Assembly (NCBI RefSeq): GCF_002775205.1
Contig: NC_036455.1
Location: 5,556,501 to 5,620,500 of the forward strand
Length of the DNA stretch: 64,000 nucleotides
Direction: 5' to 3'
From: Xiphophorus maculatus
Taxonomy: Eukaryota; Chordata; Actinopteri; Cyprinodontiformes; Poeciliidae
Shown: positions 1-64,000 of the stretch, piece after piece
How the letters are laid out: the number at the start of each line of letters is the position of its first letter
Position numbering within the stretch: position 1 is the first letter of the stretch
Notes under the pieces: model-generated
The model's input: the letters and a program-made list of their open reading frames with translations, nothing else
Databases searched by the model: none
What the model was told of the DNA's origin: nothing
Program-made: the position numbers and the translations under genes

Positions 1-399
1 TTATGGTTTTAATAAATTATGACAGATCAAATTACTGCAAAGAGAAAAGTAGCAAAGCATTGAAATAATCTGGAACCAAACATGTCTTTTAATTTTGCTT
101 TGACTGTCAACAAGTGATTAGAGTTGGGTCACTTACTTCACAAAAAAACTCATTCCCCCTCAGTCCACAAAACCAGGAAATCCACGATACTTCTTCTGAA
201 CTGCTCATCTCTAAAAATCTACAACAGGAAGCGGACAAACCGTTAAGCGTCTTTAAGTCCTTTGGTTTAATCAGAACCAAAAGCAAAAATCAGGTGAACA
301 GTTTAGAAATATTTCTAAATAATGTGTTGATCTAGAAACCACAAAAACCTTACAACAGCAATTTTTAAGATAAAGCAACTACTAATACTATTCGGTCAA

Positions 400-1033
400 A
401 TGAAGTGGACGTTACGTTTCCCATTCCTCGCTGTTGAATGAATGCAACACATAATTAACCAGAGGTTAATATTTACTTGAGTAACTTTTAGGAGTAATTT
501 TACTGCACCATGCATTATATTTTAAATTGAGTAATATTATGATTAAGTAGTGCAACATAAAATGCAGTTTATGTTGAAGTGAGATGCCTTATTTCACAAG
601 TTTGTTGTTTAAAAGTTATTTCTATCTGCTGGGGGTATTTGGAGATCAATATCATAAATACTATACAGTCAATGAAAGCACTTTACTCTGTTCTAACAAA
701 TATATACACATTATATACTGTAATCATTGGTTTCATAAATTTATATTGAAGAATTTTGATTTGGAGAAGTGTTTCTTCTGCCTAACTTTATTGTTTTGTA
801 ATCATGTTTGGATTTTTTTTCCATCTTCCTCATTAAAATACCACGTAACTTTATTTTTTAGTCTGACATAATTTAAAAAAATAAAAAGTTATGGCCAGTT
901 ACTCAAAACTTGAGTGACATTTTAATAAAATACTTGTTTACCCTTCATTGAGTTATTTCTTGGATAACTACATTTTACTTTTGAGTTAAAATGTGCTGAA
1001 GTAGTGCAACTATTACCAGACTACCCACCTCTG
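400..1033. repeat. Degraded hAT-like repeat ending in a CTACCCACCTCTG terminus
   Basis: This AT-rich stretch holds no coding exon that I can recognise. Its right end reads CTACCCACCTCTG, a terminus seen again at 60.24 kb after a similar AT-rich body rich in GTAACT/AGTTAC words. I read both as old copies of one dispersed non-autonomous DNA element. The superfamily call (hAT) comes from general resemblance; I could not find a target duplication. Bases 1-400 are likewise gene-free. Confidence 0.4.
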
Positions 1034-1476
1034 TAATATTTTTTCTGAATTATACATTTTTTTCTTTTACAAGCTCATAAAAATGATTGTCAAAGAGGAA
1101 ATTAATAGAGTATAGCACTCTTGACGCAAAATATATTGGCTATATGAGTGAAATCCAAACTATAGGAGCTAAAATGGCTAACGCTAAACAACCCAGTCAT
1201 AACCTTAAGTGAAGGTTTATTTTTAAAAACCAAGACTTTTGTTAACATTTCCTCAAACATATCGCAATGTGTAAATTAACAGGTGTTGATTCTGATTATA
1301 AATGTGTTTTAAACAAACGCGGTGGTTACTGAAGCCAAAGTTAGCTCGCTAGGCTAAAAACGGCTAATGGCGCAGCGTCAGAAAACAGGCCTCAAGCTAA
1401 AGACCGACTTCCGCTCGAACCTGCTTGTATTCCGTTTTTTATTAAATATCCCAGTCCAATCAGAATAAATACGTAC

Positions 1477-1640
1477 CTGTTTTTTAACTTTTAAATCCAG
1501 AAAAAAGCCGACTTTCAGTTACAAAGCTATTTCTCTAGTGTAAATAAAATGGACACCCCCTCCCGGTTCACTAAGCAGGATCTTCTTCTCCCTATGGCGG
1601 CAGACGGCTCAGTGCTGCCCCCTTCCGTTAGCTTCCAGTA
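1477..1640 (-). other. Candidate noncoding first exon and promoter of a minus-strand gene to the left
   Basis: Read on the minus strand, a CpG- and GC-richer block (about 1.54-1.64 kb) is followed by a strong donor, CAG|GTACGT, with the exon ending at 1477. The block is short and sits in AT-rich DNA, as expected for a first exon. The minus-strand frame has no sustained ORF, so it would be 5' UTR. The plus strand of the same block carries an ATGGCGGC (YY1-like) motif at 1594. The partner gene would lie outside the window. This is inference from a splice signal and base composition only. Confidence 0.3.
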
Positions 1641-1649
1641 GTACAACAC

Positions 1650-2534
1650 TAGTGGGGATTAAAAATAATTTTTAAAGTGATTAAAAATGAGAATTTCAGC
1701 CCTTTTTCAGTCTATTATTGAGCAGAAATCGTAATGAATTTATGAAAATGATTCTAATGTAGGCAGATTTAAATTTAGATTGCAAAAATAAAAAACAGTG
1801 GAATAACAGTGGAATGAAGACATATGAATAGTTGGATGTTAGACAAAGTGGATGTTTACAAGTTTTTGAAAATTATATAGGGAATAAAGCCTAAAAATAT
1901 CTTACATATTTATACAGACCTGAAAAGATATTACATTCAGGACTATCCAAGACGGTGTAGGAATCCCTGTGATAATAATTTTGAAAATAAGTTAAAAATC
2001 TTATGTAAACAAATTATTAAAGAAAATTTAAATGGCTGAAGAAAAAGGAGCAAAACAAAAAATGAAATAATATAATGATTAATTAGGTCTTGTCAGAATA
2101 TTAGGCCAGTTGAGAAAAATGCCAGATGACAATGACAATCTATTTACTAACTAAAATAAAATATGAACATAGAAAATATTAGATAAGGACTTTTAATGTC
2201 AAACTACTGAAAACTATTGAGTAAACCTTACTTGTCTGGGGCTCCCTTAGCATTAATTACTGCATCAATGGAACCAAGTCTGTTTTTCAGTGAGTCACTT
2301 AATGTTTGTAGTCCTATTTACTATGATATTAAATTGAAAGAACACAAACATGGCAGACTAAACATGGAGACTTTGTGTTTTTAAAGGTCTCTCATCAGTA
2401 ACATTTGCACCTTGACATCTTTTACACGATATCTGAATCAACCATATATTGAACTGAGCCACACTTGAATAATAATCAAGAACCTTTAGAAATTTATACA
2501 AAAAAACTCTTTAAATTGTCTGACTTTGTCCTTT
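1650..2534. other. AT-rich gene-free stretch
   Basis: No ORF, splice-flanked exon or RNA gene could be supported here on either strand. The composition is strongly AT-rich, typical of unconstrained intergenic DNA. Confidence 0.5.
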
Positions 2535-2941
2535 CACTGCAAAACAACCAAAAAAACTAGACACATTTCTGTCTAGTGTAAATCTCTTAGTACACTTGAG
2601 ACAAGACATAATTAACTTAAAAGCAACTTTTCAGCAAGATAAAAGTTTTAAGCTTTAAGCTCCTTAAATTAAGTTAAGGAGCTCAAGTTAATTTTTTGAC
2701 GTTGATGAAAATGTACTGCTAATATGACATTTTTCCCCACAGTATATGTGAAATAATCTGCCAGTTGAACTAGCACTTTTTCATCAATGTTAAGAAATTA
2801 TTTAATCAAAATGAGCTCCTATATTTAGCTGAAACATTGTAAGTTTGGTCTTATTTCACATGTACTTGTACATGTCTGTTTTCTAGATATTTGCACTAGA
2901 AAACAGACCAAAACCCTTGGTAAGATTTTGTTTTTGCAGTG
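2535..2941. mobile_element. Long-hairpin MITE, full-length copy A
   Basis: The element starts CACTGCAAAAC and ends GTTTTTGCAGTG, so its ends are inverted. The inverted similarity extends inward: the left arm carries TTAGTACACTTGA and CAGCAAGATA, and the right arm their reverse complements. Related copies occur at 12.96, 28.63, 47.30, 47.99, 48.86, 53.17, 53.99 and 57.95 kb. No coding capacity is visible. It is a non-autonomous foldback-type DNA element; I cannot name the superfamily. Confidence 0.75.
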
Positions 2942-3155
2942 AGACATCTTATGCAAATCCCCACGAAGAGAAAATGAGTCACAATTTTTTAACTAAATTA
3001 ACTTCAGTGATATTTTAATTTAAATAGATCTACATAGAGATGCTTGTCTGTAGATTTTGTCACCTGAACCCAGACGTCCAGTCTTAATGCGGCTGCAGAG
3101 AAAACATCGTTTCAATAACGAGACTTGCAATTATTTTCCATTAAATCAAAAGTAG

Positions 3156-3191
3156 TTTATTTAACTTTTGCCTTCTCTGTATAACTTTATT
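3156..3191 (-). terminator. Candidate distal poly(A) signals for prrc2a
   Basis: TTTATT at 3156-3161 and 3186-3191 reads AATAAA on the minus strand. A third candidate lies at 3718-3723. They are 1.9-2.5 kb past the prrc2a stop codon. Which one is used cannot be told from sequence. Confidence 0.35.
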
Positions 3192-5653
3192 ATAATAAGA
3201 CACTTCTCTGCTTGTACATTGCTCCCTTGAACTAAAAATTGCAACATTTGTTTGTGGGAATGTAAGTTGGGGTAGACAAAACTTAGATACATACCAATAT
3301 ACATACATGTGTGTATATTACGGCTCCTTTTTTTGTTTTTTTTTTATACTAAAAACCATAAATGCTAAAAACAGCTTGAACCACTCGGTGTACCTCAGTA
3401 TGTCTGGAAACATAATACAATCTTTGAGAGATCTTTCGCCGAGACACACGACTGGTGTTCATCTTTTTAACATGGGTACATACATTAATGTGCACGTCAA
3501 CGTTGAAGGAGGGATGAGAGACTCTTGGAGCCAGTGTTAAGTGTACAGCTATCAATGTATAAACCAGTAACAGGCAATGCAAGCAGCACCCAGCGGTGTT
3601 TTCATGCTAAGAAGAATTCAGAGTGAAAAATAAAAACGTCCAACTTCACTCGCCTGCTGGAGAACCGGTGCTTTAAATTACAGGAAAGAAAGTGAGAATT
3701 CTCCACTGCAGAGAGTCTTTATTAGGATGCTGAACATATACACACGGCTGAATGTATACATGTGGATGTATTTAAGAAGATTTATAGCTGTTAAATCACA
3801 TGTGGAGAGGAGAGGGAGGTGGGGGGGGGGCAAACAAGGCAGAAAATGCGCTTGCCGTTCGCTTTAACCCCTCCAGTCCCTGCCCCCCCCCTTCCCCGAG
3901 TTATTAACACCAGAAAACACACACCGACCCATGCACACGGGCGCGCGCTCACACACACACACACACACAAACACACACAGTTCATCAAATGCCCTACTCA
4001 CAACATCCCAGAGACAATCTTCAAAACTATTGTCAGTAAACAAACAAGAGCCCCAACTTACAGCAGTGACAGAATGGATGCAAATGAGGAAATCGTTTTA
4101 GTTCACTTTGGATGCTGTTATAAGCTGCTTTACGTCTCCTACGTGTGATAAAAATAAAAAAAACAAACACTTTTTACGAGTGTAATCCTACATCACTCCA
4201 GGTCACCATTTTTGTTGTTGTTGTAAGTAAAAATCCCACGGACCGTGTGAACTGCACATGTTCGGCATTGTCCCGGTTAACGGCCCGCCCCGTCTGCATG
4301 TGTGCCGGGTGAGAAATCGCTTTCCTCCCTCAGACGTCGAGTCCTTCGAGGAGCGACGGATCTCTGCATGGCGGCAGTAAGCGGAGAAAAGAGGGGAGGA
4401 TTGGTTTAAAAAAGTACAACACTGGCTCTGTTCTGTGGGGCCGGACGGCGAAACCTGTCCTGTAACATCCCCGAACATGTTACCACAAAACAAAAAAGAA
4501 AGAATAAAGAAAATGAAACAAAAATACTACAAGGAGTGCTTATTCGAACATATACGATTATCTACTGAAGAATAAACATTTGCATTAACCATCTAGTCTG
4601 GCGTTTAGATGAAGGATTTTTTTCCCCTCTCCTGTCAGAATTGATTATATTGGAAAAAAACCCAACAAAAACCCACACACAAAAACGCCGATCACTGAGG
4701 AAATAATGGTTGTTAAAATAAAGCCATCATGCTATCAGTACAGTCGTCACAAACACATCTGGTCAAACTATATTCAGTTGGGGATTTTTGCAGCCTGTGG
4801 GATTTCTGCAGGGAAGGATTATGCTACGGTGAGGCCAGAAAAAGAAATCCTACAGAGAGAAAAATAAAAATAAATGAGCAACTAATAACTACTGAAATGT
4901 CAGAGCAGGTTAACAATTTAGAGCAAAAATAAAATTCACACCATGTATCTGAACAAGGAACAAAAACACTTATACTAACGACAAATCAATGCAGGTGGTG
5001 GTGAGCACCGAGGAGAGACCAGACAATCTTTTCATGGAGGAATTAGGGGGAAAATGTGAGCAGGGAAGTAATTTAATAACCTGCTTTACAGAACTATGTT
5101 CATGTGTGGGGCTGAAATCCAACTAAAAATGCAACAAAAGCCACCAGAAACCTCAACCCTTTATGGTCTGAAGAGATTAAAAACAAGTTTTCTGCCTCCA
5201 TGAGGGAACCAATGCAGACCTGTGCTACCCGAGTCCCATCCAAGGTCAGAGTGTGGTGGAAACTGAACACATAAATAGAAAAATTAACCCAATCCAAACA
5301 TGTTCAGGGTTTCTAAGCAAACATTTTAATTCTGCCGTGTTGGTGCTTGTATAGCTTAGCGATACAGCCACATGCTTCTCAGTGTTTGTTAAAGGGCGGT
5401 TAAAAACAAAACAAAGGGGGTCCATGAACTAAAGGAGAGCAAGACCAAACAAAGAGACAGTGCTACAAAAACGGACGGTACGCAGGATGTAAAAGGAACA
5501 GCTGAAGTGAGTATGAATACCATCTCCATAAAACGGCACGATCCACTAATGTGTGAGGGGTGTCAACAGATAAGCCATGAAATAACAATCAGAAGGGGTT
5601 AAGATGGAAGGGTGGGTGTGTGGGCTCGTCTAACAAAACATCTTAATACTCCA
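3192..5653 (-). other. prrc2a: Probable long 3' UTR of prrc2a
   Basis: This stretch follows the prrc2a stop on the minus strand and contains no recognisable coding exon. I looked for the C-terminal exons found in human PRRC2A and saw none. It holds a CA/TG microsatellite (3950-3980), a moderately GC-rich block at 4.2-4.5 kb, and AATAAA candidates at the far end. The simplest reading is 3' UTR. If the last visible prrc2a codons are instead spliced to distant exons, it would be intron. Confidence 0.45.
3950..3980. repeat. CA/TG dinucleotide microsatellite
   Basis: An imperfect run of CA repeats, adjacent to a GCGCGC tract. Short ORFs across it on both strands are artefacts of the repeat. Confidence 0.9.
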
Positions 5654-18420
<12,767 letters not shown>

Positions 18421-48300: not shown

Positions 48301-51300
48301 TATATATTAGAAAGAAAAACTTGCCGTTGGACCATTCTTTAGAAATACAGATGGATATACTTAAATTTTTGAATCTTTTGCTCCCACCAGGTGCTTTATG
48401 TGGTGCTGTGGTGTGGGGTTTTCTCAACCCTCCACCTGTACATCACCGTTACCGACTACTGGGTCCTCATTCTCTCCGTCAGCCTGGTCTCCATCCTCCT
48501 CACCACCGCCATCATCTACATTCTTCATCACAGTAACAAAAATGTAAAGCGCTACGTTTTAACGCACAACTGGACACGTTTGTATTCAGAAGCAAACTAA
48601 ATTTCTTCTCTTCAACCAGATCAATATCAACATCGACGTTCGGCTGATCCAGGTGAATGAGAGAATGATGAAACATAAGCTGATGGTGGGCGTTGCCGAC
48701 TGGATCCAGAACTGCACCGGACACATGCAGGTACTTATTTAAAATCTGAAAAGTGTGTTTTAATTTTGCTACAAATGCTACAAAATATGTAAAGAAAAAT
48801 CAACTTTTTGAACGTTTTCCTCACTTTTATTTACTATTTGGCATAAATGTTGTCTCATACCTACTTTTTCCTCAATATAAAGGAATTATTCACTTAATAC
48901 TAGCTTTTATATCTTGCTGATTAGTTAGTTTTGTCTTATTTCAAGTGTAGTAAGATATTTGCACTAAATACTAGATAACAAATACTTTCAGTTCATCTGA
49001 AAAAAACCTAAATTAAATAATTTTTTCACTGCACAACTATGTACAGCAAGGTATTGCTCTGTGTAAAAACACACTGAAGTTTGTTGCTCTAACATGACAA
49101 AAACAGATGAAGTTTTATAAAGTCGCAGATTCACCCCAGTTGATCTTTGCGATGCTGTTTACCAAGCTGGAATCAGATCACAGGTTCACAAACCGTTTGT
49201 TTCCACTTGTTTGTGTGTCTCTGCAGCTGTACTTCGTGTACTGGGACATGTCTTACTGCTGGAGGACGCTGTGTGAAACTTTAGAGGAGCGCAGCTTTGT
49301 GACAAATGAAAACCAGGTGAGTCGACTGCAAGTGGCCTGCTGTTTGACTGACTTTACTGAAGCTCCGCTGGTTTGCCCTCATTCATATTAAATAGAAGCG
49401 TAACTCCTTGCTTGGGAAGCCGTCTTTGTCTCAGTTTAAGCATGAATTCGAGGGGGTTGCGGTACTTGTGGTTTCCAGTCTTGTGTCAGAACAATCAGAT
49501 CAGTCTCTCTCCTCAGAAAACCATGAAGAGCAGAATGTCACATCTAGTCTTGGTGACGGAGCTCCCTCCCATCAACCCCGAGGCCGGCGGTTCAGATGTC
49601 GAGCAAGACTCTGATGAAAACAGACCTCTGCTGAGAAATGAGGACACGGGGTGCAGTACACCGTCCAGCCAGCGGGGGGACTCAAAGGTCACCTCTAACT
49701 ACAGCCTTGTTCCTGAAACTTCACTACCTGCTCAGGTGAGATGAGAATCATGGGGATGAGTGTGTGTATGGGGATGTTTTAATAAACAAATCCTGTTTGT
49801 AAGAAAAACAGGTTTGATCAGGTTCTGAGGCTCTGTTTGGTACAAATTAAGGTATTAACCCTTTCACTGCAGTAGACAGCTATCTCAAAGCCATTTTCTT
49901 GTGTATCTTGCGGATTCTTATGCTATAAATGCACACAGACCACTGAAGTGGACACTCATACAATACACTATGATGCCAACTACTGGCCATCCACTGCCAT
50001 TGCAAGAACATTTTTGTTAAATCCAACATGGCAGACAGACGAAAAAGGAACTCAGAAATATCCAGTCCCTCCTTCTACTGTAGACATCAAGTAATGCCTA
50101 AACACCAATACCACTGATGTATTTTCCAAATAACAACTTTGTATTGGAAAAAATTACAATTGATCATCTAGAAAAAAATACTAGAACAATTTGTTTTCTA
50201 CTAAAAAAAAATCCCATCTTTTTTATGCCTTAAGAAAATCAAAAACACTTTGGAAAAACATAAAGAGTCATAATTAATGCATGAAAGGGTTAAATGGATT
50301 TTGTGTAATTCTGTTTGAAAAACCTAAATGTATGACTGAAGCCGTTCAAACAGAAACGTCCACTTATAAACATTATAGGGCGTCTAGTCTTCCTATTGTT
50401 CAGGGACTCGACGGGTTCTGTGTCTCAGTGATGATCCATTTTTGGTGTGAAGTAGGGATGCACCGATTGCAGTGTTTTGGCCGATCATGATTACCGATCT
50501 ATAAAAAGCCTAACTTCCCGATTCCGATTTTGGCTGACACCAACTTTTTGTCTGAAATGTTGATAAATATAACAAGAAAGTTGCTGAGTTGGCTATTGTT
50601 AACTACAAACATGCCGACATGTTCTGGTGGGCCAGTCTGTCAGTCAAACCTCTCTCACAGCAGAGGACAGTGGTTGAAGCAGCCTAATTATGCAGCATTT
50701 TTAGGAAATTGTATTTAGGATTGAACAGTTCCAAATGATACACTCAACTTTCAATGAAATTTGCAGTTCCTTAAGACCTCTTGGGAAGCCAGCTGTGCAT
50801 TGTCCAAGGAGAAAATTGTCTACAAATAAGTGCTTTGCTGCAAAATTCCAGCAGAATTCCATTTTGCACAATTTCACGATCAACAGAAACAAAACTGCTG
50901 TCACGAACTGGATGCCAAGATTTACACCAACATGGACTGAACACAAAGGAAACGCCTGGTCCAAAATCAACACAATCATGGTCAGACGAGGCAAACATTA
51001 AGCTCTTTGGTCACAATGATTGGGTTTGTTTGGAGAAGTCCATGTGATACCATACAATGCTAGTTGTGAAGCATGGCGGTGGCAGAACCATGGCTTGGAA
51101 GGCTGTTTTGCTGCCAATACTTACAGATCGTTGTATAAAGAAGGTGAAATAATGGAGAAAGACTACCTCCTGATTCTCTAACTTCGCCTCTGGTGACCTT
51201 TCAATTTTGCTCTATTCTTTCAGGCTAAAGCCTACCAACTTCTGATGACCTACGGTGCAGTGTATGTGAAGCTGCTAATGTCTGAGAGGCTGTCGGGGCC

Positions 51301-58906: not shown

Positions 58907-64000
<5,094 letters not shown>

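Follow-up and report, generated by a model that had tools for sequence, protein, structure and literature searches.

PRRC2A is an RNA-binding translation protein, and the PRRC2 proteins are vertebrate translation factors and binders of m6A RNA. The prrc2a gene described here, in a fish, raises the question of where its protein ends: the reading frame stops one codon past a point that is shared with the human protein, and either a short PRRC2A is made by intron read-through and exon loss, or an intron leads from this point to C-terminal exons further away. The window is the whole stretch of DNA that was analysed, 64,000 nucleotides of Xiphophorus maculatus (C13:5556501-5620500 of a 704-Mb genome); prrc2a lies on its minus strand, and downstream therefore means towards window position 1.

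Structure of prrc2a up to the stop codon

The features of prrc2a in the window are as follows.

17365-17189, minus strand: BAT2_N exon (PF07001, E 1.2e-29, 104.6 bits, profile positions 42-95 of 196)
8785-17365, minus strand: upstream exons with blocks matching the human protein (human residues 38-820)
within 11663-11502, minus strand: RER-motif block, 91% identical to the human protein over 54 aa
8546-5657, minus strand: terminal coding exon of 963 complete codons and 1 nt, from the open reading frame and the human protein
5654-5656, minus strand: TGA stop of the frame, with an in-frame TAG 7 codons further
3140-5653, minus strand: probable 3' UTR, from AATAAA signals and low coding signal, with an estimated end

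The terminal exon follows the acceptor TTTCTCTCTGTAG|A, its start at 8546 corresponding to phase 2, and its frame stays open for 963 codons on the minus strand (8545-5657) up to the TGA at 5656-5654. Translation of this frame confirmed that it ends with PSPKNR and a single K (protein ...PSPKNRK; DNA CCC AAA AAT AGG AAG TGA TGG), as the earlier note on this DNA had described. The possible donor which that note had seen overlapping the stop, GAA|GTGATG, is also present, and 5658 would be the last base of the exon if it were used. Stop-codon read-through at the TGA was set aside because of the TAG 7 codons beyond it.

The human PRRC2A sequence used for comparison has 2157 residues and reads GDKRSWPSPKNR (ending PSPKNR) up to residue 1439. 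Another 718 residues follow this point, which agrees with the claim that the human protein runs several hundred residues past the position of the prrc2a stop. When human PRRC2A was searched against 68 kb (window 1-18000 and the 50 kb to its left), 11 minus-strand blocks were obtained in order at E<0.1, covering 604 of the first 1439 residues. The lone minus-strand match of human residues 1440-2157 in these 68 kb (E 0.08) was spurious and lay inside an upstream exon at 9.66-9.80 kb.

Judged from its sequence, a frame of 963 codons with blocks matching human PRRC2A is not a product of chance. Features of the PRRC2 (BAT2) family are present in prrc2a, namely the BAT2_N domain (PF07001), the RER charged helix motif and the large RG-rich exon, which contains 28 RG dipeptides in 963 aa compared with 15.6 expected from its composition. 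The fish gene has in common with human and mouse PRRC2A (BAT2) the BAT2_N exon, the RER motif, the big RG/GRE-rich exon and, by the human sequence used, the exon end at PSPKNR. In contrast, human PRRC2A continues for its 718 residues, for which no homologue was found in fish prrc2a.

The exon end in prrc2a and its paralogues

When the genome was searched with the 963-aa prrc2a exon, the exon's own locus was recovered together with two matches on C9 (best E 3.5e-17) and two on C8 (best E 3.3e-5), five in all. We take the C8 locus to be prrc2b and the C9 locus to be prrc2c. Their big-exon frames end in AAGAG|GTGAGG (prrc2b) and AAAGG|GTGAGT (prrc2c), both strong putative phase-2 donors, and the corresponding place in prrc2a was located by where each of the three frames ends, not from aligning the last residues.

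5652-5662, minus strand: prrc2a exon end, AATAG|GAAGTGATGG (AG|GAAGTGATG), without a canonical donor at the place corresponding to the paralogue donors

The weak donor GAA|GTGATG sits 3 nt past this place and is still in phase 2. With a simple donor-site matrix, the donors of prrc2b and prrc2c scored 10.25 and 10.0, the shifted donor of prrc2a 2.84 and the corresponding place in prrc2a -7.8; the value of 2.84 was reached by 52 of the 404 GTs in the scanned segment.

Read-through of the donor gives an immediate in-frame TGA in all three genes (prrc2a, window 5652-5662; prrc2b, L016 ~1315-1330; prrc2c, L013 ~1785-1800), since the GTGA of a phase-2 donor brings a TGA into frame. The overlap of stop and donor in prrc2a is therefore expected, as prrc2b and prrc2c show the same read-through TGA, but the weakness of its donor is not. 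It also follows that intron retention after the big exon would cut each PRRC2 protein at the same point. The paralogues thus resemble prrc2a in having the same kind of big exon, with a likely phase-2 end and a read-through TGA, and they differ from it in that their donors are strong and that C-terminal exons, similar between the two, follow.

The DNA downstream of the stop codon

The C-terminal genomic DNA of prrc2b and prrc2c, when compared with each other by tblastx, gave 15 gene-sense rows at E<=1, 6 of which had at least 30 bits, and the motifs common to both include GPIGxERSLKNRK, PQMESARKAWENS, QAQLGL and KPxRTGxIKPxAxKxEEGK. In the 5.65 kb after prrc2a, the prrc2b DNA yielded no gene-sense row at E<=1 and the prrc2c DNA seven, all of them in a CA repeat at ~3.93-3.99 kb; in the 90 kb to the left, no gene-sense row (E<=1) came from either. 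The C-terminus of PRRC2A need not closely resemble those of 2B and 2C, which limits this comparison; within that limit, these data agree with the earlier observation that no C-terminal exons are recognisable in the remaining 5.6 kb.

With the human C-terminus as query, nothing matched at E<=5 in the left-hand 90 kb, and the best phmmer --max scores were 1.2 bits in the 5.6 kb that follow prrc2a and 2.7 bits in the 50 kb to the left, compared with 18.6 bits after prrc2b and 5.7 bits after prrc2c in the control runs. At E<0.1, however, the same probe found a single block in prrc2b and nothing in prrc2c, both of which have C-terminal exons, and its silence at prrc2a is therefore weak evidence. 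Among the matches listed for searches with the human C-terminus that had no low-complexity filter, all were weak and proline-rich and were judged to be due to chance.

The genome-wide search with the human C-terminus, which the earlier note had proposed, scored seven candidates and gave one match (C19, E 0.024) in a frame with two stops. No credible displaced C-terminus was thus detected, although the reach of this single run was limited, as the C-terminal exons of prrc2b and prrc2c were not reported either. A search for fish contamination in bacterial and archaeal genome contigs (53 pattern matches) and in viral contigs (14) found no relative.

The coding potential of the downstream DNA was estimated by a codon-usage scan, a rough guide with frequencies from three big exons only. 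In the 4 kb downstream of prrc2a, two of the top eight 30-codon windows exceeded 15 bits, versus 8, 8, 8 and 6 of the top eight in four 4-kb paralogue C-terminal stretches (two of these stretches share 0.7 kb). The two coding-like windows, at 4372-4283 and 3897-3808, scored 29.0 and 26.0. These scores are not outstanding, because the best window exceeded 29.0 in 12 of 40 other segment-strands of C13, which represent 80 kb left of csnk2b, are unannotated and may hold genes.

The same DNA looks like a 3' UTR with AATAAA sites, as had been proposed: on the minus strand between the stop and 1600, AATAAA occurs at 3723, 3191 and 3161, and ATTAAA at 5330, 5077, 3019, 2806 and 2197. The G+C content per 250-base step was 0.27-0.54 over 1-5500, with 0.27-0.33 in the steps from 2001 to 3250, compared with 0.57-0.66 inside the big exon. 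The 3' UTR of prrc2a may therefore be about 2.5 kb long and perhaps end near 3140. Within this presumed 3' UTR, a G+C-rich patch was observed at 4251-4500 (G+C 0.54, CpG observed/expected 0.99), which holds one coding-like minus-strand window.

The C-terminal exons could in principle still lie between 5654 and ~1600, diverged past recognition and joined through GAA|GTGATG; this donor, weak as it is, keeps phase 2, the human C-terminal query is insensitive, and the windows at 29.0 and 26.0 would be in line with such remnants of coding sequence. We consider this unlikely, as only those two windows rise above 15 bits in 4 kb where the paralogues have six to eight of their top eight, the G+C content stays below that of the big exon, the paralogue blocks are absent apart from the CA repeat, and the donor score is equalled or beaten by 52 of the 404 GTs. 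A whole set of C-terminal exons downstream of prrc2a is accordingly unlikely on this comparison, and a single diverged short exon could still be there.

The neighbouring gene csnk2b and the gene order

The next gene found downstream of prrc2a, on the same strand, is csnk2b, the start of which lies at the left edge of the window.

128-208, minus strand: first coding block of csnk2b, beginning with the ATG at 208, from comparison with human CSNK2B
1250-1600, minus strand: possible csnk2b promoter and 5' non-coding exon, suggested by a CpG observed/expected of 1.26 at 1251-1500

Six blocks of csnk2b were identified, with 87-100% identity to residues 1-215 of human CSNK2B, and the other five of them lie left of the window, down to ~C13:5551400, about 5.1 kb past its left edge (span C13:5551400-5556708). 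In the human genome, we take the order to be PRRC2A, then BAG6 and several other genes, before CSNK2B. A search of 174 kb surrounding prrc2a with parts of BAG6 was negative at E<=0.01.

This difference in order could be explained by a rearrangement that broke prrc2a in the intron behind the big exon, moved the C-terminal exons, bag6 and their neighbours elsewhere and joined prrc2a to csnk2b; the displaced exons may then persist as a relic or within another gene. The position of csnk2b as the next gene found, where BAG6 and others presumably intervene in human, and the unmatched BAG6 parts speak for such an event, but the single genome-wide search, of limited reach, gave no credible displaced C-terminus. 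Moreover, in zebrafish, bat2-like, ck2b and bat3-like genes are all located on chromosome 19 (PMC1309616), so that the neighbourhood of prrc2a and csnk2b may be old, may predate the truncation and may be unrelated to it. Based on this evidence, a rearrangement that left displaced exons elsewhere is quite unlikely.

An assembly error, either a collapse or a deletion that took the C-terminal exons out of the contig, is very improbable, since csnk2b follows in the same contig (C13, 28.7 Mb) and the weak donor would need a separate explanation. Least tenable is the other possibility raised in the earlier note, a very long intron, or one spanning csnk2b, to C-terminal exons left of the window: only the existence of a weak donor at 5658 speaks for it, it would have to cross csnk2b, which runs leftwards from window 208 on the same strand, and the 90 kb to the left held neither a human C-terminus match (E<=5) nor a gene-sense paralogue row (E<=1), for which reasons it was rejected.

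Two further open frames of the window showed domain matches. A CD225 (interferon-induced transmembrane) match was found at 62365-62733 on the minus strand (E 1.2e-10), in a frame that we take to resemble a PRRT1-like gene, and a DUF4481 (PF14800) match at 49361-49744 on the plus strand (E 7.4e-12).

A probably shortened prrc2a gene

Since prrc2a appears to end at the point from which the human gene splices on to its last third, and a neighbour gene starts a few kb further on, the fish probably makes a shortened PRRC2A. With probes of limited sensitivity, neither the 5.6 kb downstream nor the left-hand 90 kb yielded a credible block of the C-terminal third itself (human 1440-2157). The weak donor, the lack of paralogue matches other than the CA repeat and the 3'-UTR-like stretch support, within one genome, the first of the two readings in the earlier note, a short PRRC2A formed by read-through and exon loss, and this reading is favoured over a very long intron.

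We therefore regard it as fairly likely that prrc2a was shortened at its 3' end by decay of the donor and loss of the exons behind it, the big exon now running on into the 3' UTR. In this process, prrc2a would have been left without a good donor for the intron that the paralogues have behind their big RG/GRE-rich exon, an older AG|GT at the exon end possibly having been lost by a small deletion or insertion. The big exon would then be read through and end at once in TGA, the downstream exons for about 700 residues would be gone, and the DNA up to csnk2b would serve in part as the prrc2a 3' UTR. The paralogues prrc2b and prrc2c, which keep their C-terminal exons, could cover for the short gene. 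A phase-2 GTGA donor would make such a clean truncation possible, as read-through leads to a stop at once.

A more far-reaching form of this shortening is that a lineage of fish has fixed a minimal PRRC2A, reduced to its N-terminal and RG/GRE parts, after one rearrangement in the intron behind the big exon had taken out bag6 along with the C-terminal exons and brought csnk2b to the position directly behind prrc2a; we offer this tentatively, as a possibility against which the odds lie. In the literature searched, no truncated fish PRRC2A was found. The gene is the orthologue of a known gene in shortened form, and it is a modest curiosity unless other fish share the same end.

Possible function of the short protein

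Several findings in the literature bear on what a short PRRC2A could still do. In the portions of a PRRC2B study that concern these regions, interaction with initiation factors is assigned to the N-terminal BAT2 domain, the RG-rich region gives the long isoform additional partners among RNA-binding proteins, and all that is said of the C-terminus is that it contributes to protein binding jointly with the N-terminus (PMC12700102). For mouse Prrc2a, the fragment data show binding of m6A RNA and YTHDF2 by P2 (761-1408), and P3 and P4 comprise 1409-2158 (PMC6318280). As far as these accounts go, the big exon of prrc2a appears to be equivalent to exon 16 of human PRRC2B and roughly to the mouse P2 (GRE, m6A-RNA-binding) fragment; the short fish protein would then correspond roughly to P1 and P2, and the missing part roughly to P3 and P4.

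A shortened PRRC2 protein that arises by a change at the same big exon has been described in human, namely the short PRRC2B isoform PRRC2BS, which in the description drawn on here skips exon 16 and keeps both termini (PMC12700102). The fish gene differs from it, since in prrc2a the counterpart of exon 16 is kept and it is the C-terminus that is lacking.

The open frame, long and conserved, suggests that the short PRRC2A may still work. It would keep the BAT2_N, RER and RG/GRE regions, which have been studied best and to which, in the mammalian work cited above, binding of initiation factors, m6A RNA and YTHDF2 maps. Therefore, by analogy with that mammalian work, the short protein should still join initiation complexes and bind RNA, and loss of the C-terminal region may cost it some protein contacts. 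If the truncation is real, a vertebrate without the PRRC2A C-terminus in one paralogue would show what is dispensable, and if it is fixed in the lineage, such fish would represent a natural experiment on the role of the C-terminal third of PRRC2A.
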